NCBI RefSeq assembly: GCF_025463795.1
Contig: NZ_JAODBE010000044.1
Span: forward strand, 1-39,295
DNA: 39,295 nucleotides
Direction: 5' to 3'
Source of the DNA: Amnibacterium sp.
Lineage (GTDB): Bacteria > Actinomycetota > Actinomycetes > Actinomycetales > Microbacteriaceae
Positions within the stretch are counted from its first letter, which is position 1. Each line of letters starts with the position of its first letter. The notes under the pieces were generated by a model that saw only the letters and a program-made list of their open reading frames with translations, was not told the DNA's origin and ran no database searches. Shown here one piece after another: positions 20,629 through 30,846 of the stretch. A program made the position numbers and the translations under genes.

Positions 20629-22386
20629 ATGACGACGATTCCGGCACCAGCGGAGCACGCCCGCACGACGATCCCGACCGGGGCCGACGGCCTCGGCCCT
20701 GACCAGCGCGAGGCCGCAATCGCCGCGATGCGCGACCACGAGCTCGACATCCTCGTGGTCGGCGGCGGGATCGTCGGCGTGGGCTCGGCCCTCGACGCCG
20801 TGACCCGCGGACTCTCGGTCGGCCTCGTCGAGGCCCGGGACTGGTCGGCCGGCACCTCGAGCCGGTCCTCGAAGCTCGTGCACGGCGGCATCCGCTACCT
20901 CGAGCAGCTGAACTTCACCCTCGTGCGGGAGGCGCTCATCGAGCGCGGGCTGCTGCTCCAGCGCATCGCGCCGCATCTCGTGAAGCCCGTGCGCTTCCTC
21001 TTCCCGCTCACCCACCACATCTGGGAGCGGGCCTACATCGGTGCCGGCATGGCCGTGTACGACGCCTTCAGCTGGACCGGTGGACGGCCTCCGGGCGTAC
21101 CCCACCACCGGCACCTCACCCGGCGTCAGCTCTACCAGGCGATCCCGTCCCTGAAGAAGGGCGTGATGGTCGGCGGCCTCACCTACTACGACGCCCAGGT
21201 CGACGACGCCCGCTACGGGGCCTCGGTCGCCCGGACCGCCGCCCGGTACGGGGCCCACGTCGCCACCCGCGTGCGCGTGGACGGCTTCCTCAAGGTCGGC
21301 GAGCGGGTCGTCGGAGTGCACGCGCACGACCTCGAGACCGGTGAGCGGTTCGACATCAGGGCGAAGCAGGTCGTCAACGCGACCGGGGTCTGGACGGACG
21401 ACACGCAGGCCCTCGTCGGCGAGCGCGGCCAGTTCCATGTCCGCGCGAGCAAGGGCGTGCACCTCGTCGTGCCGCGCGACCGCATCCAGTCGACGCTCGG
21501 GATGATCCTCCGCACCGAGAAGAGCGTGCTCTTCGTGATCCCCTGGGGCCGGCACTGGATCCTCGGCACGACCGACACCGACTGGCACCTCGACAAGGCG
21601 CACCCCGCCGCGACCGCGGTCGACATCGACTACATCCTCGAGCACATCAACCGCGTGCTCGCGGTGCCGCTCACCCGGGACGACGTCGAGGGGGTCTACG
21701 CCGGGCTGCGGCCGCTGCTCGCCGGCGAGAGCGAGCAGACCAGCCAGCTGTCCCGCGAGCACATCGTCGCCCACTCGGTGCCGGGCCTCGTCGTGATCGC
21801 CGGCGGCAAGTGGACCACGTATCGCGTCATGGCGAAGGACGCGATCGACGCCGCCGTGGCGGCGCTCGACGGGCGGATCCCGAAGTCGGTCACCGAGAAC
21901 ATCGCTCTCGTCGGCGCCGAGGGCTACGAGGCCGCGTGGAACCAGCGCGCCGCCATGGCCGCCCGGCACAAGCTGCACCCGGCGCGGATCGAGCACCTGC
22001 TCAACCGGTTCGGCACGCTCACCGAGGAGGTGCTCGCCCTCGTGGACGAGCGGCCCGAGCTCGGGGCGCCGGTGCCCGGGGCCGACGACTACCTGCAGGC
22101 CGAGATCGTCTACGCCACGACGCGCGAGGGGGCGCTGCACCTCGACGACGTGCTCGCCCGGCGCACACGGATCTCGATCGAGGCGTGGGACCGCGGGGTG
22201 TCCGCGGCGCCGGTCGCCGCCCGGCTCATGGCCGAGGTTCTCGGCTGGGACGAGGAGCACGAGCGGCTCGAGGTGGAGACCTACCTCGAGCGGGTGCGTG
22301 CCGAGCGCGAGAGCCAGACGATGCCGGACGACGAGTCGGCGGACCGCGTGCGACTCGAGGCGCCGGAGATCGTGCAGGCGGTGTGA
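20629..22386 (+). CDS. glpD: Glycerol-3-phosphate dehydrogenase (aerobic, FAD-dependent)
   Basis: Oxidises sn-glycerol 3-phosphate to dihydroxyacetone phosphate and passes electrons to the quinone pool at the inner face of the membrane. The 585-aa length matches actinobacterial GlpD. The dinucleotide-binding motif VVGGGIVGVGSALDA is near residues 44-58, followed by LVEARDWSAGTSSRSSKLVH and GGIRYLEQ. FVIPWGRHWILGTTDTDW and YAGLRPLL belong to the substrate-binding domain. GGKWTTYRVMAKDAID closes the FAD site. A C-terminal helical domain begins near residue 410. ATG 20629 has a good ribosome-binding site. The stop overlaps the GTG of the SURF1 gene. The acidic C-terminal tail is short and not conserved. 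Confidence 0.95.
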   Translation: MTTIPAPAEHARTTIPTGADGLGPDQREAAIAAMRDHELDILVVGGGIVGVGSALDAVTRGLSVGLVEARDWSAGTSSRSSKLVHGGIRYLEQLNFTLVREALIERGLLLQRIAPHLVKPVRFLFPLTHHIWERAYIGAGMAVYDAFSWTGGRPPGVPHHRHLTRRQLYQAIPSLKKGVMVGGLTYYDAQVDDARYGASVARTAARYGAHVATRVRVDGFLKVGERVVGVHAHDLETGERFDIRAKQVVNATGVWTDDTQALVGERGQFHVRASKGVHLVVPRDRIQSTLGMILRTEKSVLFVIPWGRHWILGTTDTDWHLDKAHPAATAVDIDYILEHINRVLAVPLTRDDVEGVYAGLRPLLAGESEQTSQLSREHIVAHSVPGLVVIAGGKWTTYRVMAKDAIDAAVAALDGRIPKSVTENIALVGAEGYEAAWNQRAAMAARHKLHPARIEHLLNRFGTLTEEVLALVDERPELGAPVPGADDYLQAEIVYATTREGALHLDDVLARRTRISIEAWDRGVSAAPVAARLMAEVLGWDEEHERLEVETYLERVRAERESQTMPDDESADRVRLEAPEIVQAV

Positions 22387-23225
22387 CCGGAGGCGTTCCC
22401 GCGGATCCGGCTCGCCGCACCCTCCGGCAGGAGATGCTGCGGCCCCGGTCCCTGGGCTACCTGCTGCTCGCGCTGCTGGTCGCGGCCGTCTTCGCGGCGC
22501 TCGGGCAGTGGCAGCTCGGTCGCGCCGTGCAGGCGGGCACGGTGATCGTGCGGCCGACGGAGACCGTGAAGGCGCTCGCCGCGGTCGCGCGTCCGCAGTC
22601 GCAGCAGACGGACGCGTCGGTCGGGCAGCTCGTGACCACGAGGGGCTCCTGGGTGGCCGGGGACTTCCTCGTGGTCGGCGATCGCCTGAACCGGGGCGAC
22701 CGCGGGTTCTGGGTCGTCGGTCACGCGATCGTCGACGAGCCTGCGCGCACCAGCCTCGCGGTGGGTCTCGGCTGGGCGAAGGACCGCGCCTCGGCCGACC
22801 GCGTGGCCGCAGCGCTGAACATCCATCCGGCGGGCGACGGGACCATCACGGGGCGCTACATCGACAGCGATCCCGCCGAGCCGTCGGTCTCCGGCTCGCC
22901 GACCGTCCTGTCGGCGGTGTCGACGGCGCGACTCATCAACCTCTGGAGCAGCCCGCAGATCCCGGTCTACGAAGGCGTGCTCACGCTGCGCTCCGCGCCC
23001 GCCGGGCTGACGGCCATCTACTCGCCGCGTCCCGAGGAGCAGGTCGAGCTGAACTTCCTCAACCTGTTCTACGCCGCCGAGTGGGCGCTCTTCGCGCTCG
23101 CGGCCTTCTACGTCTGGTACCGCCTGGTGCGTGACCGGTGGGAGCTGGACACCGCGGATCCGGAGGATGCCCGGGAGCTGCACGCCGAGGCGGGGGCGCC
23201 CGGCGGGGGCGCGGGACGCGCGTAG
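22383..23225 (+). CDS. SURF1 family cytochrome oxidase assembly protein
   Basis: A 280-aa membrane protein of the SURF1 family, which helps assemble the haem-copper cytochrome oxidase. The first membrane helix (about 22-41) ends in the family motif ALGQWQLGRA. A periplasmic domain follows with TRGSWVAGDFLVVGDR. The second helix lies near residues 230-250 (EWALFALAAFYVWYRL). The GTG at 22383 overlaps the glpD stop (GTGA), so translation is probably coupled; an internal ATG at 22434 is a less likely alternative. Its TAG stop is also the first half of the TAGCAT that precedes the next gene. Confidence 0.88.
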   Translation: MTGGVPADPARRTLRQEMLRPRSLGYLLLALLVAAVFAALGQWQLGRAVQAGTVIVRPTETVKALAAVARPQSQQTDASVGQLVTTRGSWVAGDFLVVGDRLNRGDRGFWVVGHAIVDEPARTSLAVGLGWAKDRASADRVAAALNIHPAGDGTITGRYIDSDPAEPSVSGSPTVLSAVSTARLINLWSSPQIPVYEGVLTLRSAPAGLTAIYSPRPEEQVELNFLNLFYAAEWALFALAAFYVWYRLVRDRWELDTADPEDARELHAEAGAPGGGAGRA

Positions 23226-23228
23226 CAT
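23223..23228 (+). promoter_or_regulatory. -10 box overlapping the SURF1 stop codon
   Basis: TAGCAT begins with the TAG stop of the SURF1 gene and lies 9 nt before the ATG of the DUF3817 gene. This allows a nearly leaderless transcript for the next gene. Partial dyad symmetry (GGGACG...CGTTCCC) surrounds it. Confidence 0.4.
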
Positions 23229-23237
23229 CGTTCCCCG

Positions 23238-23696
23238 ATGCCCACCAAGCCGCTCCGGGTGCCGCCGACCCGGGACTTCCCGACCATCCGCCGCAGCCTG
23301 CTCTTCTACAGGACCTTCGCCTACGCGACCGGTGTCGCATTGCTCCTGCTCTGCGTCGAGATCATCGCGAAGTACGTCTTCGGCGTCGAGCTGCAGCTGG
23401 GGGGCCCGTACGGGTTCCTCGCGCTGGTGCCCCCGAGCCAGATGCACGGCTTCAACCTGTCCGCGACGATCCAGTACGTGCACGGCTACCTGTACCTGAT
23501 CTACCTCATCAGCGACTTCGTGCTCATCACCGTGATGCGGTACCCGATCACCCGCTTCCTCGTGATCGCGGCCGGCGGTGTCGTGCCGTTCCTCTCCTTC
23601 GTCACCGAGCGTCGCGTGCACGGCGAGATCGCCGGCTATCTGGCCGAGCGCGAGGCCGCCGAGCGGCAGCGCGCGGCCGCGCCGACCGGCGTCTGA
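23238..23696 (+). CDS. DUF3817 membrane protein
   Basis: A 152-aa protein with three hydrophobic segments, matching the DUF3817 family of actinobacterial integral membrane proteins. Recognisable stretches are FYRTFAYATGVALLLLCVEI near residue 22, QMHGFNLSATIQYVHGYLYL near residue 65, and VVPFLSFVTERRVH near residue 115. Function is unknown. The family is often found next to SURF1 and guaA genes. Here guaA lies 4 kb away because a minus-strand operon intervenes. The stop is only 4 bp from the stop of the convergent PfkB gene, leaving no room for a separate terminator. Confidence 0.85.
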   Translation: MPTKPLRVPPTRDFPTIRRSLLFYRTFAYATGVALLLLCVEIIAKYVFGVELQLGGPYGFLALVPPSQMHGFNLSATIQYVHGYLYLIYLISDFVLITVMRYPITRFLVIAAGGVVPFLSFVTERRVHGEIAGYLAEREAAERQRAAAPTGV

Positions 23697-23700
23697 CGGC

Positions 23701-24552
23701 TCAGCCCGCCACGAACGCGGCCGCCGCCTCGTTGGCCCGCACGGCAGCGTCGTGCGGGCCGGCGCCGCTCGCGAGCGCCGCGAGGAACGTGCCGACATGG
23801 GTGTCGCCGGCGCCGTTCGTCGAGCGGGCGACGACCCGTGGCGCGGGCAGCGCGAGGGGGTCGTTCCCGCGGACCGCGAGGACGCAGCCCGCGGATCCGC
23901 GCCGCACCACGGCACCGCGGCGCATCCGGCCGGCGAGCGCGGCCGCGGCCAGCACCGGATCCGTGATCCCGGTGGCGGCCGTCGCCTCGTCCTCGGTGCC
24001 GCTCCACCAGTCGACGCGGGCCAGCAGCGCTCCGGCGTCGCCCTGGAGGCCGAGCGGGCCGGGATCGAGCAGCACCGTCGTGCCGGGCGGCAGCGCCTCG
24101 AGCACGCGCGTGATCGCCGCGGTGCGCTCGGGGTCCTGCAGCCCGTAGCCGGAGACGTGCACGAGGTCGTCGGCCTGGAAGCGCACGTCGGCGAGTGCCG
24201 GGTCGGCGAGCTCGGCGCCCGGCAGCGTGACGAAGGCGCGCTCGCCGTCGGGTTCGACGAGGGTGACCGCGAGGCCGGTGTCGCGGTCCGGCACGGGGGC
24301 GGTGAGGACCGGGATGCGGGCGGTCTCGAGCGCGGTCCCCACCGTGCGACCGAGGGGACCGGTGCCGATGCGGCCCGCGAACGCCGCAGCCCCGCCCGCG
24401 GCTCGGACCGCGAGGACCATCCGCAGGCCGCCGCCCCCCGCGACCGGGCCCCCGTCGCTCGCGACGACGTCGCTGCCGCGGGTGGGCAGCGCCGGAACCG
24501 CGGCGACGAGGTCGACGACCGCGTTGCCGAGCGTGACGACGCGGCCGGTCAC
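23701..24552 (-). CDS. PfkB family carbohydrate/nucleoside kinase
   Basis: A 283-aa ribokinase-fold kinase that transfers phosphate from ATP to a sugar or nucleoside hydroxyl. The N-terminus reads VVTLGNAVVDLVAAVPALPT. The glycine-rich GGPVAGGGGLRMVLAVRAAG is the first family signature. The second signature, STNGAGDTHVGTFLAAL, carries the catalytic base Asp250 and the anion hole. GTG 24552 overlaps the stop of the ADP-ribosylglycohydrolase gene by 4 bp. It is the last gene of a four-gene coupled operon. The substrate is unknown; from context it could be ribose or a nucleoside released or used by the neighbouring glycohydrolase. Confidence 0.87.
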   Translation of the reverse strand: MTGRVVTLGNAVVDLVAAVPALPTRGSDVVASDGGPVAGGGGLRMVLAVRAAGGAAAFAGRIGTGPLGRTVGTALETARIPVLTAPVPDRDTGLAVTLVEPDGERAFVTLPGAELADPALADVRFQADDLVHVSGYGLQDPERTAAITRVLEALPPGTTVLLDPGPLGLQGDAGALLARVDWWSGTEDEATAATGITDPVLAAAALAGRMRRGAVVRRGSAGCVLAVRGNDPLALPAPRVVARSTNGAGDTHVGTFLAALASGAGPHDAAVRANEAAAAFVAG

Positions 24553-25541
24553 CGCAGCGCGAGCAGTGCGTCGGCGCGGCGTTCGAGGTCGAGGGCGTTC
24601 ACGGCGAGCACCGTCGACACCGCGTCCGCGGGGAACGCGGCAGGCCCGTGGACGGCTCCGCCGATCGCGCCCGCCATCGCGGCGATGGTGTCCGTGTCGC
24701 CGCCGAGCCCGGCGGCCTCGCAGCACGCCGCCCACGGGTCGTCCGGATGCAGGGCGAGCATCGCGAACGCGGCCGGCACGGACTCCTGGGTGGCGAGGCT
24801 CGTTCCGACGAGGGCGACGATCTCGGGCACCGTGCTGCCGGGCTCGCCACGGGCGGAACGCTCGAGCACCCACGCGATCCTCGCCCCGACGTCCGCGCCG
24901 GCCACCCAGGTGCCGCGCTGCACGCCCTCCCGCGCAGCGCGGATCGCGAGCGCGACGGCGACGTGCAGCGGCTGCCCTTCGACGCCGGCCGAGACGGCGG
25001 CGGCGACCGCCGCAGCCCCGGCGATGGCGACCGAGGTCGCATGACTGACGAGGCATGCTTCCTCGACCCGGTCGACGAGGGCGGGGAGGTCGTCGCATGC
25101 GGTCGCGATGCCGACAGGCGCGATGCGCATCGCCGCGCCGTTCGTCGTGCCCGTCGTGCCGGCGAGCTCGGGTGGCACGCCCTCGAGCACGGCCTGCACC
25201 GCCTTCCTCGTCGACGGACCGAGCAGGTCGAGGGAGCCGCGCTCGCGCATCCGGTCCTCCCAGTCCGCGAGCCGGACCGCGAACCGGCCCGGGTCGACGC
25301 GGCCGGCGCCCTCGATCAGCAGGTCGGCGAGCAGCAGCGCCTGCTCGGTGTCGTCCGTCACGGATCCGGCCGGCAGGCCGGCGGCGATCGGGTGGTCGGG
25401 GGGTGCGGGCAGGAGGCGGGTGACCGGCCCGACCGTCGACCGGATGCGCTCCCGCGACAGCCCCTGCGTCGGCATGCCGAGGGCGTCGCCCACCGCGAGG
25501 CCGATCAGGGCCCCGAGTGCCCGCTCCCGCCGAGTCGTCAT
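24549..25541 (-). CDS. ADP-ribosylglycohydrolase family protein
   Basis: A 330-aa ARH-fold protein. This family uses two metal ions to cleave the N- or O-glycosidic bond of ADP-ribosyl groups, and some members may act on simpler ribosides. The N-terminal motif ALGALIGLAVGDALGMPTQG is typical. Metal ligands include the TDDT motif at 62-65 (SVTDDTEQALLLADLL) and the C-terminal GGDTDTIAAMAGAIGGA with Asp282 and Asp284. Key residues look intact. ATG 25541 overlaps the stop of the upstream cysteine hydrolase (ATGA). Being coupled to a PfkB kinase and a permease recalls the E. coli yegTUV set, also of unknown function. A role in catabolism of an N-riboside is inference. Confidence 0.88.
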   Translation of the reverse strand: MTTRRERALGALIGLAVGDALGMPTQGLSRERIRSTVGPVTRLLPAPPDHPIAAGLPAGSVTDDTEQALLLADLLIEGAGRVDPGRFAVRLADWEDRMRERGSLDLLGPSTRKAVQAVLEGVPPELAGTTGTTNGAAMRIAPVGIATACDDLPALVDRVEEACLVSHATSVAIAGAAAVAAAVSAGVEGQPLHVAVALAIRAAREGVQRGTWVAGADVGARIAWVLERSARGEPGSTVPEIVALVGTSLATQESVPAAFAMLALHPDDPWAACCEAAGLGGDTDTIAAMAGAIGGAVHGPAAFPADAVSTVLAVNALDLERRADALLALR

Positions 25542-26083
25542 CGGCGCCCCACGACCTCGTCGACGCTCGAGATCGTGATGAGCGGCGTGTAGAGCGCCAT
25601 CGCGGCGAGCGCGCGCTCGTGGTCGGCGGCGCTCGCGCCGGCGCAGGCGTCGGCGGCGACCACCACGGCACGGCCGGCATCCGCGGCGGCGAGTGCCGTC
25701 GACAGCACGCAGCAGTCCGTCGAGACGCCGACGACGACGAGGCGCTCGGCGCCGCCAAGGGCGGACGCGAGCGCGTCCCCCCACTTGCCGAACGTCGGCG
25801 CGCTCACGACGGGGTCTGAGGCGGGGCCGAGTGCCGGATCGATGAGCCAGATCGGGTCCTCGTCCGGCACGAGGGCGAACGGCCACTCGTCGTAGTAGGC
25901 GCGCCAGGCGCCTTCCGGCCGCTCGGGCGCGACGAACCGCGTCCACACCGTCACTCCGGTGAAGGCGGGCAGCAGCCGCCGCACCCCGGCGGCCGCGGCG
26001 GCGTAGTCGGGGGTGTTCCAGGGGCTCGCGGGATCGGCGAAGACGTGCTGCATGTCGACGACGACGAGCGCGTCACCGGTCAT
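25538..26083 (-). CDS. Isochorismatase-like cysteine hydrolase
   Basis: A 181-aa protein of the isochorismatase/nicotinamidase superfamily. The triad appears complete: Asp10 in LVVVDMQHVF, Lys100 in PTFGKWGDA, and Cys125 in GVSTDCCVLST. The metal-binding DxHxxxH motif of true nicotinamidases (PncA type) is absent, so simple nicotinamidase activity is doubtful. N-carbamoyl or ureido amide hydrolysis is an alternative. It starts at ATG 26083, overlapping the permease stop, and its own stop overlaps the next ATG. It probably processes the base or amide imported by the NCS1 permease, which is inferred from the operon only. Confidence 0.87.
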   Translation of the reverse strand: MTGDALVVVDMQHVFADPASPWNTPDYAAAAAGVRRLLPAFTGVTVWTRFVAPERPEGAWRAYYDEWPFALVPDEDPIWLIDPALGPASDPVVSAPTFGKWGDALASALGGAERLVVVGVSTDCCVLSTALAAADAGRAVVVAADACAGASAADHERALAAMALYTPLITISSVDEVVGRR

Positions 26084-27576
26084 GCCGGGGTCCGCTGCGT
26101 CTCCGGCAGCGACTCCTGGCGTCGCACGGCGGCGCGGCCGATCAGCAGGGTGCCGAGGAAGCCGACGAGGAGCGCGACGATCACGCCGAGGTTCGCGTAG
26201 GCCCACGCGCCGCCCCGGCCGCCGAGCCCGAACGGGCCGAGCAGGTAGCCCTGCCAGTCGAGCCACGCCGGCACCCCGTAGGTGTTGATGACGAGACCCC
26301 AGCCGAGCACCGTGCCGATCACGAGGAGCGCGATCGGCAGGACCCGCACGTCGCCGTAGCGGCCGCGCGGGTCCTGCAGGTCGGCGTCGGCGTAGTCGCG
26401 CCTGCGCAGGGCGAAGTCGGCGAGGAAGACCCCGCACCAGGCCGCGATCGGCACGCCGAGCGTCACGAGGAACGCCTCGAAGGGGGCGACGAAGTCGGGG
26501 GCGAAGAACGCGACGTAGATCGCACCGATGATCATCACGACACCGTCGACGCCGGCGGCGACGTACCGCGGGATCGGGATGCCCGCCGACAGGAGGGCGA
26601 GCCCGGAGGAGTAGATGTCGAGGACCGCGCCGCCGACGAGGCCGAGGATCGCGACGATCGCGAACGGGATGAGGAACCAGATCGGCAGGATCGTCGTCAG
26701 CGCGCCGATGGGATCCGCGCCGATCGCCTTGCTCAGCTTCGGCGACGACCCGGCGAGCAGCAGCCCGATCACGACGAGCAGGACGGGCGCGAGCGCGCCG
26801 CCGAGGGTCGTCCAGCCGAACACCCCGCCGCTGCGGGTGGAGCGCGGCAGGTAGCGCGAGTAGTCGGCGGCGGCGTTCACCCAGCCGAGCCCGAAGCCGG
26901 TCATGACGAAGACCAGGGCGCCGATCACGGCCTGCGGCGATCCGGCGGCGACCGCGCCGACGGCGGCGAGGTCGATCTTCGGCGCCGTCAGGACGACGTA
27001 GACGACGGTCAGCACCGCGGTGATCCAGGTGATCCAGACCTGCAGCCGCATGATCAGGTCGAAGCCGGCGATGCCCGCCCCCACGATCAGCGCGGCGACG
27101 ACGATCAGCGCGATGATCTTCGTGACCGCGCCGTTCCCGAGCCCGAGCTCGCCGAAAACGGTCGCCGTCGCGAGGACCGCGAGCGCGGTGAGCGCGGTCT
27201 CCCAGCCGACCGTGAGCACCCACGAGATCACGGCGGGCAGGCGGTTGCCACGCACGCCGAAGGCCGCCCGGCTCAGCACCATCGTCGGTGCGGAGCCCCG
27301 CTTGCCCGACAGGGCGACGAAGCCGCAGAGCGCGAACGAGACGACGATGCCGATGATCGCGACGAGCGTCGCCTGCCAGAAGGAGATGCCGAAGCCGAGG
27401 ATGAAGCTGCCGTACCCGAGTCCGAGCACGGACACGTTGGCGGCGAACCACGGCCAGAACAGGTCGCGGGCCCGGCCGCGGCGTTCGGCCTCCGCGATGG
27501 TGTTCAGACCGTTCACCTCGATGCCGGCGCGGACGCCGTCACCGGATGCGGCGGGGCGAGAGGTCTGGGCGGTCAC
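26080..27576 (-). CDS. NCS1 family purine/cytosine-type permease
   Basis: A 498-aa nucleobase:cation symporter-1 protein with about 12 membrane segments. The family-typical start [16 protein letters not shown] precedes [40 protein letters not shown] is the conserved region of helix 6 to loop, and [17 protein letters not shown] follows. The family carries cytosine, purines, allantoin, hydantoins or related ring compounds. The start is GTG 27576 with GGGAG 6 nt upstream. It is the first gene of the minus-strand operon and is divergent from guaA by 86 bp. The cargo is not determined; the neighbouring cysteine hydrolase and glycohydrolase suggest an amide-bearing base or its riboside. Confidence 0.9.
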
Positions 27577-27597
27577 GGCGCTCCCTGGGGTCGGTGG

Positions 27598-27615
27598 GCA
27601 CCAGGGTATTGGTGC
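27598..27615 (-). promoter_or_regulatory. NCS1 operon promoter: -10 TACCCT within the inverted repeat GCACCA-N6-TGGTGC
   Basis: The perfect arms GCACCA (27598-27603) and TGGTGC (27610-27615) enclose GGGTAT. On the minus strand this gives a -10 hexamer TACCCT (27603-27608), 26 nt before the GTG of the permease, with its ribosome-binding site between. A bound repressor would block the -10. No regulator gene is in the operon. Confidence 0.5.
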
Positions 27616-27649
27616 GGCCGCCCCCGCGGGGTCGCGGATCGCGCCGCCC

Positions 27650-27665
27650 TAGACTTCCTGGGGTG
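27650..27665 (+). promoter_or_regulatory. Leaderless guaA promoter
   Basis: TAGACT (27650-27655) is followed by 7 nt and the GTG at 27663. There is no Shine-Dalgarno, consistent with a leaderless transcript. This decides for GTG 27663 over the ATG at 27675. Confidence 0.55.
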
Positions 27666-29300
27666 ACGGACGCCATGCAGGCCAGCGCGGATCCGGCGAC
27701 GACGGATGCGGATCCGGGCGCCGCGGCCGGAGCGGAGGCCCATCCGGTCCTCGTCGTCGACTTCGGCGCCCAGTACGCGCAGCTCATCGCGCGGCGGGTG
27801 CGCGAGGCGGGCGTGTACTCCGAGATCGTGCCGCACGGCGTGACGGCGGAGGAGGTCGCCCGGCGGAACCCGGCGGGCATCGTGCTCTCCGGCGGCCCGT
27901 CCAGCGTCTACGAGCCGGGGGCCCCGGCGCTCGATCCGGGCATCCTCGAGCTCGGGGTGCCGGTGCTCGGCATCTGCTACGGCTTCCAGGTGATGGCGCA
28001 GCAGCTCGGCGGCACGGTCGCGCACACGGGCGCCAGGGAGTACGGGTCCACGCCGGTGCGGGTCGCGGAGGGTGCGGGCGGCGGCCTCCTCGACGGCGTG
28101 CCGGTCGACCAGACGGTCTGGATGAGCCATGGCGACTCGGTCGCCGAGGCTCCGGACGGCTTCCGGGTGCTGGCGAGCAGCCCGTCGACGCCGGTCGCGG
28201 CGTTCGCGAGCGACGAGCGGCGGCTCTACGGCGTGCAGTGGCATCCGGAGGTGAAGCACTCCGCCTACGGCCAGCAGGTGCTCGAGAACTTCCTGCACGG
28301 GCGGGCGGGGATCGGCCGCGACTGGAACCCCGGCAACGTCATCGCGGAGCAGGTCGAGCGGATCCGCGCCCAGGTCGGCGACGCCCGCGTTCTCTGCGGG
28401 CTGTCGGGCGGCGTCGACTCCGCGGTCGCTGCGGCGCTGGTGCAGCGCGCGGTCGGCGACCGGCTCACCTGCGTCTTCGTCGACCACGGGCTGCTGCGGG
28501 AGGACGAGGCCGAGCAGGTCGAGCGCGACTTCGTGGCCGCGACCGGGGTGCGGCTCGTCACGGTGGACGCGAGCGCGCAGTTCCTCGCCGCGCTGGACGG
28601 GGTGTCGGACCCGGAGACGAAGCGGAAGGCGATCGGCCGCGAGTTCATCCGCACCTTCGAGCGGGCCGCGGCGGAGGTCGTGCGCGAGGCGGCCGAGGTG
28701 GGCGAGACCGTCCGGTTCCTCGTGCAGGGCACGCTCTACCCGGACGTCGTGGAGTCCGGCGGCGGAAGCGGCACCGCGAACATCAAGAGCCACCACAACG
28801 TCGGTGGTCTGCCCGAGGACCTCACCTTCGAGCTGGTCGAGCCGCTGCGCACTCTGTTCAAGGACGAGGTGCGGGCGATCGGACGGCAGCTCGGGCTGCC
28901 CGAGCCGATCGTGGCGCGGCAGCCGTTCCCGGGGCCGGGGCTCGCGATCCGGATCGTCGGGGCGGTCACGCCGGACCGGCTGGCGACCCTGCGCCGCGCG
29001 GACGCGATCGTGCGCGAGGAGCTGACGGCCGCGCGTCTCGACGACGAGATCTGGCAGTGCCCGGTGGTGCTGCTCGCAGACGTGCGGAGCGTGGGCGTGC
29101 AGGGCGACGGGCGCACGTACGGGCATCCGATCGTGCTGCGGCCGGTGTCGAGCGAGGACGCGATGACGGCGGATTGGACGCGCCTGCCCTACGACGTGCT
29201 CGCACGCGTGTCGAACCGCATCACGAACGAGGTCGCCGGCGTGAACCGGGTCGTGCTCGACGTGACGAGCAAGCCCCCCGGCACGATCGAGTGGGAGTGA
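27663..29300 (+). CDS. guaA: GMP synthase (glutamine-hydrolysing)
   Basis: Converts XMP to GMP with glutamine and ATP. The 545-aa bifunctional enzyme is complete. The class I amidotransferase domain occupies about residues 28-215, with Cys105 in [10 protein letters not shown] and the His/Glu pair in [12 protein letters not shown]. The ATP pyrophosphatase domain begins with the P-loop [14 protein letters not shown]. The C-terminal dimerisation domain ends in [11 protein letters not shown], the family-typical terminus. The N-terminal 25 residues are Ala/Asp-rich and not conserved. GTG 27663 is chosen because it lies 7 nt after a -10 box. The stop codon lies in one arm of a long hairpin. Confidence 0.96.
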
Positions 29301-29340
29301 GGTGGTGGGGGGGCACTGCGTGCCTCCTCACCACCTCACT
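29296..29340. terminator. Long bidirectional hairpin at the guaA 3' end
   Basis: The arms AGTGAGGTGGTG (29296-29307) and CACCACCTCACT (29329-29340) pair perfectly over 12 bp. The loop holds a second stem, GGCAC-TGC-GTGCC (29312-29324). The guaA stop TGA lies in the left arm. On the minus strand the right arm contains the stop of the candidate 58-aa peptide. It is likely a terminator for guaA and possibly works in both directions. No U-tract. Confidence 0.65.
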
Positions 29341-29396
29341 GCGCGCGTCCGCAGGATGCGCTGCAACGACGGGAGTAGTACCCGAGCGGCTGGGAG
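29336..29396. repeat. Direct repeat copy 1 (about 61 bp)
   Basis: Copy 1 of an imperfect repeat whose second copy starts exactly 100 bp later. The last 39 bp (29358-29396) are identical to 29460-29498. As plus-strand RNA it folds GCGUCC-GCA-GGAUGC, with one G-U pair, and CGGG-AGUAGUA-CCCG. Confidence 0.9.
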
Positions 29397-29512
29397 GTGA
29401 CGTCCACCCGGTGTGCCTGCACGTCCGCCGCGGCGTCACTGCGCGCGTCCGTCTCGGACGCGCTGCAACGACGGGAGTAGTACCCGAGCGGCTGGGAGAC
29501 GCCACAAACCAT
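29336..29512 (-). CDS. Candidate 58-aa peptide with an internal 13-residue repeat
   Basis: This small reading frame starts at ATG 29512 and ends in TGA inside the guaA hairpin. The predicted peptide contains QPLGYYSRRCSAS twice, about 34 residues apart. Single Cys residues lie near the N-terminus (MVCGV), in each repeat and near the end (SCGRAQ). I do not recognise the family. GC3 is about 82%, higher than in the other frames here but below the neighbouring genes. The only base difference between the 13-codon copies is synonymous (GCG/GCA). There is no clear Shine-Dalgarno or -10, and a strong hairpin (29513-29542) abuts the start. It may instead be a structured RNA on the plus strand. Confidence 0.3.
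   Translation of the reverse strand: MVCGVSQPLGYYSRRCSASETDARSDAAADVQAHRVDVTSQPLGYYSRRCSASCGRAQ
29436..29498. repeat. Direct repeat copy 2 (about 63 bp)
   Basis: Copy 2 of the repeat at 29336. It has a 2-nt indel in the first hairpin, which here is GCGTCCG-TCT-CGGACGC, a fully paired 7-bp stem. The 3' 39 bp are identical to copy 1. Confidence 0.9.
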
Positions 29513-29542
29513 CGCGTCGTTCCGGAGAAATCGGACGACGCG
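29513..29542. terminator. Hairpin after the second repeat
   Basis: The stem CGCGTCGTTCCG/CGGACGACGCG has one bulged T and a 7-nt loop GAGAAAT. On the plus strand it follows the two repeat modules and could end an RNA. On the minus strand it lies directly before the candidate peptide's ATG. The remaining 29543-29613 holds only a weak ACGCC/GGCGT hairpin that may end the SGNH-GAF gene. Confidence 0.4.
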
Positions 29543-29613
29543 CCGACCCGACGCCTCGGGAAGCGGCGTGTCGTTTCGAGAACTCCGGATCCGCGTGATG
29601 GGCCGTGAAGGGG

Positions 29614-30846
29614 TCAGCGCGGCAGCGACTCCCGGACGGATCCGTCGGGACGGGTCCAGAACTCGCGCTGCGCACGGAGGGCGAGGTCGCGAAGCAGGGT
29701 GGTGTCGATGTCGCGGCCCGATCTCGGCTCGGTGTCGAGCACGCAGAGCGCCCCGATCCGGTAGCCGTCGGGCGACTCGATCGGGTAGCCGGCGTAGAAG
29801 CGCCAGCCCGCGGCCAGGAGGTCGGGGTGCACGTGGGGGTCGTTCCGCAGGTCGGGGACGACGAGCGGACGGTCGTGCCGGATCGTGCGGTGGCAGAGCG
29901 CGACCTCGCGGGGGAGCTCGACCGGGCTGTCGTCCGGGCCGGCGACGGCCTTGTGCCACTGCCGCTCCCGGTCCACGAGGGAGATCCCCGCGAACGTCGC
30001 GCCGAACGTCGACTTCGCGGACCGCGCGATCCGGTCGAACCGCTCCTCGGGCACCGTGTCGAGCACGTCGAGGGCGTCGAGGGCCGACTGCCGGGCCACC
30101 TCGGCCGCCGGGGTGTCGCGCACGGCCCGCGCGGAGCGGGTGTCGGCCGCCGCGGCGGCCGCGTCGAGCCCGCCGACGAGCGCCGGCACGATCATCTCGG
30201 CCAGCAGCTGGAAGGCCTGCGCGGAGCGGTACTGCACGCCGCGCACCGCCTCGTCGTCCCGGTCGACGTAGGTGAGGCGGGGATCCTCCGCGCAGAGGGC
30301 CCTGGTCGCCGCATTGAGGCGGCGGGCGTGGCGGTCGACCAGGTCGCCGAGCACGCCGGCGGTCAGCGAGGAGCGGCGCAGGCTGTAGATGCCGAGCACG
30401 ACGATCGGCGTCCCGGGCGACGCCCGACGGGTGATCTCCTCGAGCAGGGCGCGCATGGCCGCGCGCCAGCGGGTCACCGAGAGGAAGGCGGCGGCGTCGG
30501 TCGCGCCGATGATGACGACGATGCCGTCGTAGCGCTCGGGACGGAGGCGGGCGATCAGCGGCGGGGCGATCTCGACCGAGGTGCGCCGCCGGGCGACGAG
30601 GTCGACATCGGCGCCGCGGCCGGTCTGCGCCGCCAGGATCCGGCCGATCTGGCCCGGCAGGGCGAGGTCCTGCGTGCGGACACCGAACCCGGTGGCCGGT
30701 CCGTTCCCGAAGACGAGCACACGGTCGGGGTCGGGCCCGGGCGCGTGGTACTGCGGCGGATCCGTGGGGTGCGCCACGTGATCGAGCTCGGCCTGGACGC
30801 GGGTCAGGAATGCGCGGGCGAAGGGCCGGAGCAGCATCTCGAGCAT
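29614..30846 (-). CDS. Degenerate SGNH-hydrolase-like domain fused to a GAF domain
   Basis: A 410-aa protein. Residues about 50-225 look like an SGNH/GDSL hydrolase fold: DRVLVFGNGPATGFGV aligns with block I, GIVVIIGATDAAAF with block III, and RGVQYRSAQAFQLLAE with block V. The catalytic positions are replaced: GDS is GNG, GxND is GATD, and the block V His appears to be Gln. Residues about 255-400 form a GAF domain with ISLVDRERQWHKA, CHRTIRHDRPLVVPDLRNDP and GYRIGALCVLDTEPRS. No output domain is visible. It could be a sensor in which both domains bind ligands. The start ATG 30846 is tentative, with GAAGGA about 12 nt upstream; ATG 30837 is an alternative. Confidence 0.75.
   Translation of the reverse strand: MLEMLLRPFARAFLTRVQAELDHVAHPTDPPQYHAPGPDPDRVLVFGNGPATGFGVRTQDLALPGQIGRILAAQTGRGADVDLVARRRTSVEIAPPLIARLRPERYDGIVVIIGATDAAAFLSVTRWRAAMRALLEEITRRASPGTPIVVLGIYSLRRSSLTAGVLGDLVDRHARRLNAATRALCAEDPRLTYVDRDDEAVRGVQYRSAQAFQLLAEMIVPALVGGLDAAAAAADTRSARAVRDTPAAEVARQSALDALDVLDTVPEERFDRIARSAKSTFGATFAGISLVDRERQWHKAVAGPDDSPVELPREVALCHRTIRHDRPLVVPDLRNDPHVHPDLLAAGWRFYAGYPIESPDGYRIGALCVLDTEPRSGRDIDTTLLRDLALRAQREFWTRPDGSVRESLPR

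Follow-up and report, generated by a model that had tools for sequence, protein, structure and literature searches.

A composite permease, cysteine hydrolase, ADP-ribosylglycohydrolase-like and PfkB kinase operon in Amnibacterium sp. with a proposed role in N-riboside salvage

Introduction

Which compound, if any single one, is handled by an operon that combines an NCS1-family permease, an isochorismatase-family cysteine hydrolase, an ADP-ribosylglycohydrolase-like protein (ARH), and a PfkB-family kinase? The question is raised by a contig of the actinobacterium Amnibacterium sp. (Microbacteriaceae; NZ_JAODBE010000044.1 of assembly GCF_025463795.1, positions 1 to 39,295), hereafter referred to as the window, meaning the whole stretch of 39,295 nucleotides that was analysed, in which these four genes follow one another in that 5' to 3' order on the minus strand (Table 1). 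Comparison with related loci shows that the operon is a composite, in which one type of permease and hydrolase is united with an ARH-PfkB pair that is itself a recurrent unit. It represents a variant of the uncharacterised yegUV-type unit, patchy in its distribution yet far-reaching, and its role is probably the salvage of an N-riboside, i.e., a nucleoside-like compound. A concrete explanation is thereby offered for the unsolved yegTUV pathway of Escherichia coli, and natural ARH-PfkB fusions together with the close pairing of permease and hydrolase narrow the problem to few compounds and two reaction orders. If the ARH does act on small ribosides, a family that removes protein modifications would gain a role in nutrition or metabolite repair.

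A recurrent pair of glycohydrolase and kinase

Related loci were collected with an alignment of 18 ARH sequences (alignment A1). The best 80 of at least 424 confirmed candidates, selected by ARH similarity alone and with their neighbours ignored, are referred to as the named loci, and a neighbouring family was counted when it lay within 5 kb of the ARH, on the basis of rough gene calls made inside the loci with simple scripts. By this count, 76 of the 80 named loci have a PfkB gene near the ARH, 63 have an NCS1 permease, and 62 have a GntR regulator; the cysteine hydrolase is encoded in 12, and a PotD-like binding protein of an ABC system in 8 (PotD is the top NCBIfam match, below cut-off, for the single such member scanned). 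The most frequent order is GntR-ARH-NCS1-PfkB (40/80). Among 28 additional ARH loci, mostly from one other family, the corresponding numbers are 24 for PfkB, 19 for NCS1, 14 for GntR, and 10 for the cysteine hydrolase, and eight of these loci have the order NCS1-cysteine hydrolase-GntR-ARH-PfkB. The co-occurrence of the families on which the sequence-only reading depended is seen in most of the loci examined, but not as one fixed set of four, the cysteine hydrolase being optional. In three of the named loci, all of them actinobacterial, ARH and PfkB form a single open reading frame (ORF) that has no internal stop and matches both profiles over their full length (Table 1). Natural fusion of this kind is strong evidence that the two enzymes catalyse neighbouring steps of one pathway, and the glycohydrolase and kinase pair is a recurrent unit.

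This unit is found across Actinomycetota, Pseudomonas, Burkholderiales, rhizobia, Ktedonobacter-type genomes, and enterics, and the ARH-PfkB pair is annotated on plasmids of Pantoea, Rhizobium, Paracoccus, Mesorhizobium, Paraburkholderia, and Plesiomonas. All seven genomes of the genus sample, that of the window included, match the ARH strongly (E of about 1e-112 or lower), and six of them carry the four genes side by side; in the seventh, contigs break inside the gene set and the pieces agree. Any ARH match at E 0.001 was found in 28 of 99 relatives, the genus genomes among these, and at E 1e-50 the ARH was found in 27 of 341 genomes of one other family. All four genes are also present in three other genera of Microbacteriaceae (L188-L190), and two further genera of the family have an ARH with a different NCS1 (L011, L013). 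Beyond these, the four-family set recurs in Acidimicrobiaceae, Propionicimonas, Kribbella, Streptomyces, Bifidobacterium, Gardnerella, and a further family, and does so in more than one gene order.

Union with one type of permease and hydrolase

Relatives of the cysteine hydrolase were recovered at E 1e-10 from 33 of 394 genomes of the class, that of the window included. Of the 29 other loci returned, 25 have an NCS1 permease with 55-72% identity to that of the window beside the hydrolase, three have PfkB alone adjoining, and one has neither NCS1 nor PfkB. The 32 other hydrolase-encoding genomes were found to carry this type of ARH (E <1e-80) in 4 cases, a distant ARH only in 7, and none at E 1e-5 in 21. 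For 104 NCS1 proteins, including two as outgroup, a tree was built with FastTree, as was one for the PfkB kinases (both are without printed support values and include a few pairs from one genome). In the NCS1 tree, the hydrolase is encoded nearby for 45 of the 50 members of clade A, to which the permease of the window belongs (one of the five exceptions lies at a contig end), and for none of the 52 members of clade B. These locus counts and the tree identify the cysteine hydrolase as an accessory that is tied to one permease type, although at least five more ARH loci (L277, L286, L290, L291, and L295) have an NCS1 of 63-70% identity and no hydrolase, which softens the rule. That all four genes form one fixed set, as the sequence-only reading had it, does not stand, given that the usual partner of the hydrolase is the permease and that 28 of the 32 other hydrolase-encoding genomes are without this type of ARH.

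Conversely, clade-B NCS1, ABC, or MFS carriers accompany ARH-PfkB in other loci, and in two genomes (G317 and G271) hydrolase and ARH are encoded on different contigs. In three loci (L141, L143, and L145) the hydrolase has a PfkB of the operon family as its partner, with ARH and NCS1 absent within about 1.5 kb; the genomes concerned returned no ARH match at E 1e-5. The operon of the window is a composite, and because the union of hydrolase and ARH-PfkB recurs in several orders and lineages, it is read here as functional rather than accidental.

Further observations concern the permease. In the Acidimicrobiaceae loci L065 and L081, two PfkB copies flank an NCS1 of the clade to which that of the window belongs, and L065 also has a gene that reads by eye as a 6-phosphofructokinase. 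Elsewhere in the genome of the window (L187; G000:C121:51000-66000), a second NCS1 of 67% identity has as neighbours an NtaA-type flavin monooxygenase and a gene resembling that of adenosine deaminase, and the window type of cysteine hydrolase does not adjoin it. A comparison of the window permease with solved structures gave no sequence match at E 0.001.

Kinship with yegTUV and other known systems

A resemblance to E. coli yegTUV had been proposed from the sequence alone, and it proves to be real for two of the four proteins. YegU is 37% identical to the window ARH over 329 amino acids (E 1e-62). A profile of the operon PfkB, derived from 110 rows, none of them from E. coli, gives 197 bits for YegV, the best of ten proteins scored, followed by RbsK (129), FruK (65), PsuK (41), and YeiI (38), and the PfkB paralogues of the genome itself reach 99 bits at most. 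The E. coli system (yegTUV with YegW/GgaR, b2098-b2101) likewise includes a transporter gene in the operon and has 4-bp overlaps at the yegT/yegU and yegU/yegV junctions; its GntR gene yegW, a kind of regulator shared with many of the related loci, follows on the opposite strand. The resemblance does not extend to the carrier, as YegT is not an NCS1 protein and the window permease has no significant BLAST match to it (E 0.31). Further differences are that yegTUV has no cysteine hydrolase and that YegU carries a glutamate in the active-site flap where the window ARH carries a glutamine. A GntR profile that finds such a regulator in 62 of the 80 related loci had no match in the window. The functions of yegTUV are stated to be unknown in the available part of the one study of these genes that was found (PMC10819704), and a literature search at the level of titles and abstract openings, with papers that merely mention yegU outside its scope, returned no report of a YegU assay.

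The GntR-ARH-NCS1-PfkB operons of Pseudomonas, Streptomyces, Curtobacterium, and others share the ARH and PfkB families and an NCS1 permease with the window, but their NCS1 is of clade B (35-40% identity to that of the window), no cysteine hydrolase adjoins it (0/52 in the tree), and they have the GntR regulator for which the window gave no match. On a Plesiomonas plasmid (L233:317-3709), genes for an ARH, a cytosine permease, and a PfkB are consecutive; this ARH has the YegU-like glutamate, and the carrier is not of the YegT kind. In the J3 region of a Staphylococcus SCCmec element, ARH, cytosine/purine permease, and ribokinase genes are listed consecutively (Table 3, in the available part of PMC3321955); this trio resides on a mobile element and is likened to the window by its three family names alone.

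Proposed pathway and the enzymes involved

In the salvage pathway proposed here, the NCS1 permease would import an N-riboside and the ARH-like enzyme would hydrolyse, at its two-metal site, the bond that joins ribose to a ring nitrogen, an activity predicted from its family and residues. PfkB would phosphorylate the 5-position, either of the riboside before cleavage or of the free ribose after it, and the resulting ribose 5-phosphate would enter central metabolism. Where present, the cysteine hydrolase may free ammonia by taking an amide or ureide group off the same compound or off the base once this is released. With the genes of the operon counted, the genome encodes 8 PfkB, 4 NCS1, and 5 isochorismatase-family proteins, in addition to 2 IunH-type nucleoside hydrolases. 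Because two IunH-type hydrolases and eight PfkB kinases are already at hand, a common nucleoside would be a redundant and therefore less likely substrate. The alternative transporters of related units all suit small nitrogen-rich or nucleoside-like solutes: NCS1, the ABC system with the PotD-like protein, a carrier that bears the annotation 'nucleoside permease' in Salmonella and in each of the five Pantoea regions retrieved, and YegT of E. coli.

The window ARH resembles DraG and ARH3 in fold and metal site. Its metal-site motifs TDDT and GGD[TS]DT are invariant in all 18 sequences of alignment A1, and its conserved Asp105 aligns with DraG Asp97. The structural model (pLDDT 94.7) has MJ1187 (1t5j) as nearest solved structure, with DraG and ARH3 among the best fold matches. 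Unlike these enzymes of protein de-ADP-ribosylation, it is encoded in a putative metabolic operon, and it differs in two parts of the active site. First, the ExxA motif of DraG, in which Glu121 is described as holding the adenine (PMC7050489, available part), corresponds in the alignment to Thr129-x-x-Thr132. With ExxA lost, the enzyme probably makes no use of the ADP portion of the usual substrate, and its own substrate would be one without ADP; the argument excludes the DraG mode only, ARH1 and ARH3 being described in the same text as binding adenine by other modes (PMC7050489). Second, the flap glutamate (ARH3 Glu41, DraG Glu28) is Gln26 in the window ARH. Among 165 distinct ARH sequences drawn from all loci at E 1e-30 or better, this position is Gln in 130 and Glu in 35, the latter comprising about 20 distant ARHs, all enterics fetched (E. 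coli, Salmonella, Pantoea, and Plesiomonas), and a few actinobacterial proteins. Since the actinobacterial ARHs with Glu include L099 and L127, where the cysteine hydrolase is present, the flap change does not follow the carrier strictly. A role of the flap Glu in the active site is described for ARH3 and DraG (PMC7050489, PMC8319183), and mutation of Glu41 is reported to abolish ARH3 activity (PMC8319183). As far as the available parts of these reports go, the authors of the latter remark that alpha-NAD+, an N-glycosidic substrate, does not require initial nucleophilic activation (PMC8319183), and ARH1 and ARH3 cleave alpha-linked substrates including the nicotinamide bond of alpha-NAD+, not of beta-NAD+ (PMC9738213). 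From this we infer that the ARH of the operon may prefer alpha-N-ribosides with a good leaving group.

For the cysteine hydrolase, the triad Asp10-Lys100-Cys125 is invariant in all 41 aligned relatives (Cys125 was picked over the equally conserved Cys124 through alignment to nicotinamidase), as are Trp22, Arg49, Trp60, and Tyr63. The metal motif of nicotinamidases is absent, as had been noted from the sequence: TRDWHP of 1ilw aligns with TRFVAP, and without a metal site the enzyme is placed with amidases of small amides and ureides, its fold group being the metal-free amidases that act on maleamate, biuret, ureidoacrylate, and N-carbamoylsarcosine. Its model (pLDDT 95.3) is closest in fold to maleamate amidase 4l07 (Z 24.7, rmsd 2.4, 177 residues aligned), followed at Z 22-23 by biuret hydrolase, RutB, triuret hydrolase, and N-carbamoylsarcosine amidase, with nicotinamidases next at Z 21-22; the top sequence-profile match is nicotinamidase 1ilw (E 4e-11). 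As nicotinamidases lie within 2-4 Z of maleamate amidase, the fold does not settle the substrate. Ordinary nicotinamide salvage was considered and rejected, in agreement with the sequence-only reading, on the grounds of the missing motif and of a separate PncA-like protein in the genome (36%, 5e-21). A lone hydrolase relative (L170; G475:C5:222000-236000) lies near radical-SAM and creatininase-like genes in what appears by eye to be a mycofactocin-like cluster.

Residues of the kinase were counted over 100 family members, five distant rows having been left out beforehand. RbsK Asp16, Gly42, and Asp255 are kept in 100, 100, and 99 of these, and Asn46 in 87; six have Arg in place of Asn46, among them the window PfkB, which keeps the catalytic Asp and the GAGD motif and has Gly for RbsK Lys43. 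The earlier statement that those catalytic residues of the three enzymes that could be checked are intact has to be qualified for Gln26 of the ARH and, in PfkB, for Gly and Arg at the positions of ribokinase Lys43 and Asn46 and for a C-terminal segment that is missing.

Several observations weigh against N-riboside salvage. The unit is patchy: among 296 genomes sampled from the class, 16 have the ARH at E 1e-20, and among 396 from the phylum, 4 have it at E 1e-50, that of the window included in both cases. Permease and hydrolase occur mostly in genomes without this ARH and may therefore serve another compound. With Gln in place of a Glu that is essential in ARH3, the ARH may turn over slowly, work by a different mechanism, or have no activity. 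In the kinase, RbsK Asn14, Lys43, and Glu143, which we take to be the ribose contacts, are kept in 0, 0, and 2 of the 100 proteins, so that it is no ordinary ribokinase and may act on another sugar or on an entire riboside. The seven PfkBs of the genus end 37-41 residues after the start of GAGD, against a median of 58, and thus have some 17-21 C-terminal residues fewer; outside the genus, short tails of 42-46 residues occur in L035, L037, and L039. Lastly, the effector reported for YegW in the available part of its description, ADP-glucose, points to a different substrate (PMC10819704).

Alternative explanations

Cleavage followed by phosphorylation of the free sugar, the order assumed in the sequence-only reading, is not the only one to be considered, since the changed ribose contacts would also allow a kinase-first order: PfkB would phosphorylate the riboside, and the ARH would then cleave the riboside 5'-phosphate to base and ribose 5-phosphate. 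Such an order, to which a substantial though lesser probability is given, has a parallel in pseudouridine breakdown, where PsuK acts first and PsuG second, and psuT-psuG-psuK is like the operon in combining a carrier, a PfkB kinase, and a glycosidase for a riboside; PsuG is not known to be related to ARH. Asn14, Lys43, and Glu143 are changed in 100, 100, and 98 of the 100 operon PfkBs, and PsuK is also without Lys43 and Glu143, retaining Asn14. Moreover, the ARH keeps the segment NGAAMR next to the lost adenine motif, and this segment presumably serves the phosphate part of the substrate. Yet the operon PfkB profile is nearer RbsK than PsuK (129 versus 41 bits), and, apart from the residue roles being assumed ones, loss of the contacts fits any non-ribose sugar equally well.

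A narrower and rather doubtful possibility, which is a lead, is that the compound is a pyridine nucleoside such as nicotinamide or nicotinate riboside or a relative, in which case the ARH would free the base, PfkB would save the ribose, and the hydrolase would act on the carboxamide or a ring-opened amide. In Pantoea dispersa and Pantoea sp. At-9b, on related plasmids, a nucleoside-permease/ARH/PfkB/GntR unit directly adjoins a nic-type cluster that encodes a 2,5-dihydroxypyridine dioxygenase, FAD monooxygenase, alpha/beta hydrolase, Asp/Glu racemase, isochorismatase-family protein, and MFS transporter. Independently of Pantoea, in Rhodococcus 14-1411-2a (L071) the unit is followed by a LacI-like gene (by eye) and then by genes for a formamidase (498.6 bits, cut-off 406) and a flavin reductase, with NicX-like (38%, 9e-68) and NicC-like (32%, 3e-38) genes also downstream. 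On a Paracoccaceae plasmid (L227:9995-10552), a hydrolase relative of 42% identity lies among two NtaA-type monooxygenases, a molybdenum hydroxylase, and an amino-acid-type ABC transporter. The closest folds of the hydrolase include maleamate amidohydrolase, a vitamin B3 enzyme, and the cleavage of nicotinamide from alpha-NAD+ by ARH1 and ARH3, as given in the available text of PMC9738213, is also in keeping with a pyridine substrate. On the other hand, NicX or NicC was found at E 1e-8 in just 3 of 295 loci scanned, two of which are the Pantoea plasmids that supplied the query proteins, and of the five Pantoea regions retrieved (from 15 Pantoea records), three, namely those of P. soli, BRR-3P, and SO10, have the unit but no nic genes. 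The nicA/nicB labels of the molybdenum hydroxylase of L227 lack NCBIfam support above cut-off, and the genome of the window has its separate PncA-like protein. Apart from the nic lead, no recurrent genes for base-degrading enzymes were seen beside the unit in the loci whose neighbours were listed, with the rough gene calls and 15 reference proteins.

It is unlikely, if not negligibly so, that the operon comprises two independent modules on one transcript, with NCS1 and hydrolase scavenging amide or ureide nitrogen and ARH and PfkB handling an unrelated riboside. The 25 of 29 loci with paired NCS1 and hydrolase, the 28 of 32 such genomes without this ARH, the separate contigs of G317 and G271, and the other carriers that accompany ARH-PfkB elsewhere would all be explained in this way. 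The recurrence of the four-family combination in many lineages and in more than one order speaks for a common function, as does the pairing of operon-family PfkB with the hydrolase alone in L141, L143, and L145.

A similarly low probability attaches to the proposal that these ARHs are catabolic alpha-N-ribosidases that destroy alpha-anomeric nucleosides, PfkB and hydrolase then recovering ribose 5-phosphate and ammonia. Candidate substrates would be alpha-nicotinamide riboside or its phosphate, arising from NAD damage, or cobamide alpha-ribosides. Nucleoside hydrolases of the IunH kind are beta-specific, so that alpha-ribosides are beyond their reach.

Least probable by far is that the set acts on ADP-glucose or another ADP-sugar in glycogen metabolism, as proposed for yegTUV/YegW, where, in the available part of the report, ADP-glucose releases YegW binding and loss of yegW raises glycogen (PMC10819704): the same paper states the yegTUV functions to be unknown, the DraG adenine motif is lost in the ARH, and neither a cysteine hydrolase nor a carrier of the NCS1 or polyamine type would suit ADP-glucose.

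Operon anatomy and neighbouring genes

Table 1. Coordinates of the operon and its junctions in the window, and of ARH-PfkB fusion ORFs in related loci
Feature	Position	Strand	Start and length	Remarks
NCS1-family permease	26080..27576	-	GTG start, 498 aa	PF02133 123.7 bits (cut-off 23.5); clade A of NCS1 tree
Isochorismatase-family cysteine hydrolase	25538..26083	-	ATG start, 181 aa	PF00857 99.6 bits
ADP-ribosylglycohydrolase-like protein (ARH), YegU type	24549..25541	-	ATG start, 330 aa	PF03747 221.2 bits; predicted N-ribosyl hydrolase
PfkB-family kinase, YegV type	23701..24552	-	GTG start, 283 aa	PF00294 115.9 bits; C-terminal tail missing
NCS1 / cysteine hydrolase overlap	26080..26083	-	4 bp	ATGA
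Cysteine hydrolase / ARH overlap	25538..25541	-	4 bp	ATGA
ARH / PfkB overlap	24549..24552	-	4 bp	GTGA
Presumed promoter region	27577..27674	-		Upstream of NCS1, divergent from guaA-like gene
ARH-PfkB fusion ORF	L052:10001-12052
ARH-PfkB fusion ORF	L121:9878-12061
ARH-PfkB fusion ORF	L099:9112-11079

The four genes and their three 4-bp overlaps, first described from the sequence, are confirmed by the ORF list of the window (23701-27576), by the junction letters, and by Pfam scores that lie well over cut-off for all four proteins; NCBIfam matches are below cut-off only (e.g., 76 bits for the NCS1 against TIGR00800, cut-off 353). All three overlaps are present again in 4 of 12 other loci tested (L200, L201, L202, and L190), and they support the assignment of the genes to one operon. 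Overlaps of 4 bp are common among bacteria, and they were rejected as evidence for the fixed ratio of the proteins that had been suggested earlier. Rfam was searched for a riboswitch, from which the ligand could have been named: no family reached its gathering score in positions 22000-30000 of the window, and 7 of the 80 named loci gave three tRNA matches only. Upstream, the divergent gene with a putative start at about 27675 is one that we take, from its sequence, to be GMP synthase (guaA), and the convergent gene downstream presumably encodes a DUF3817 protein.

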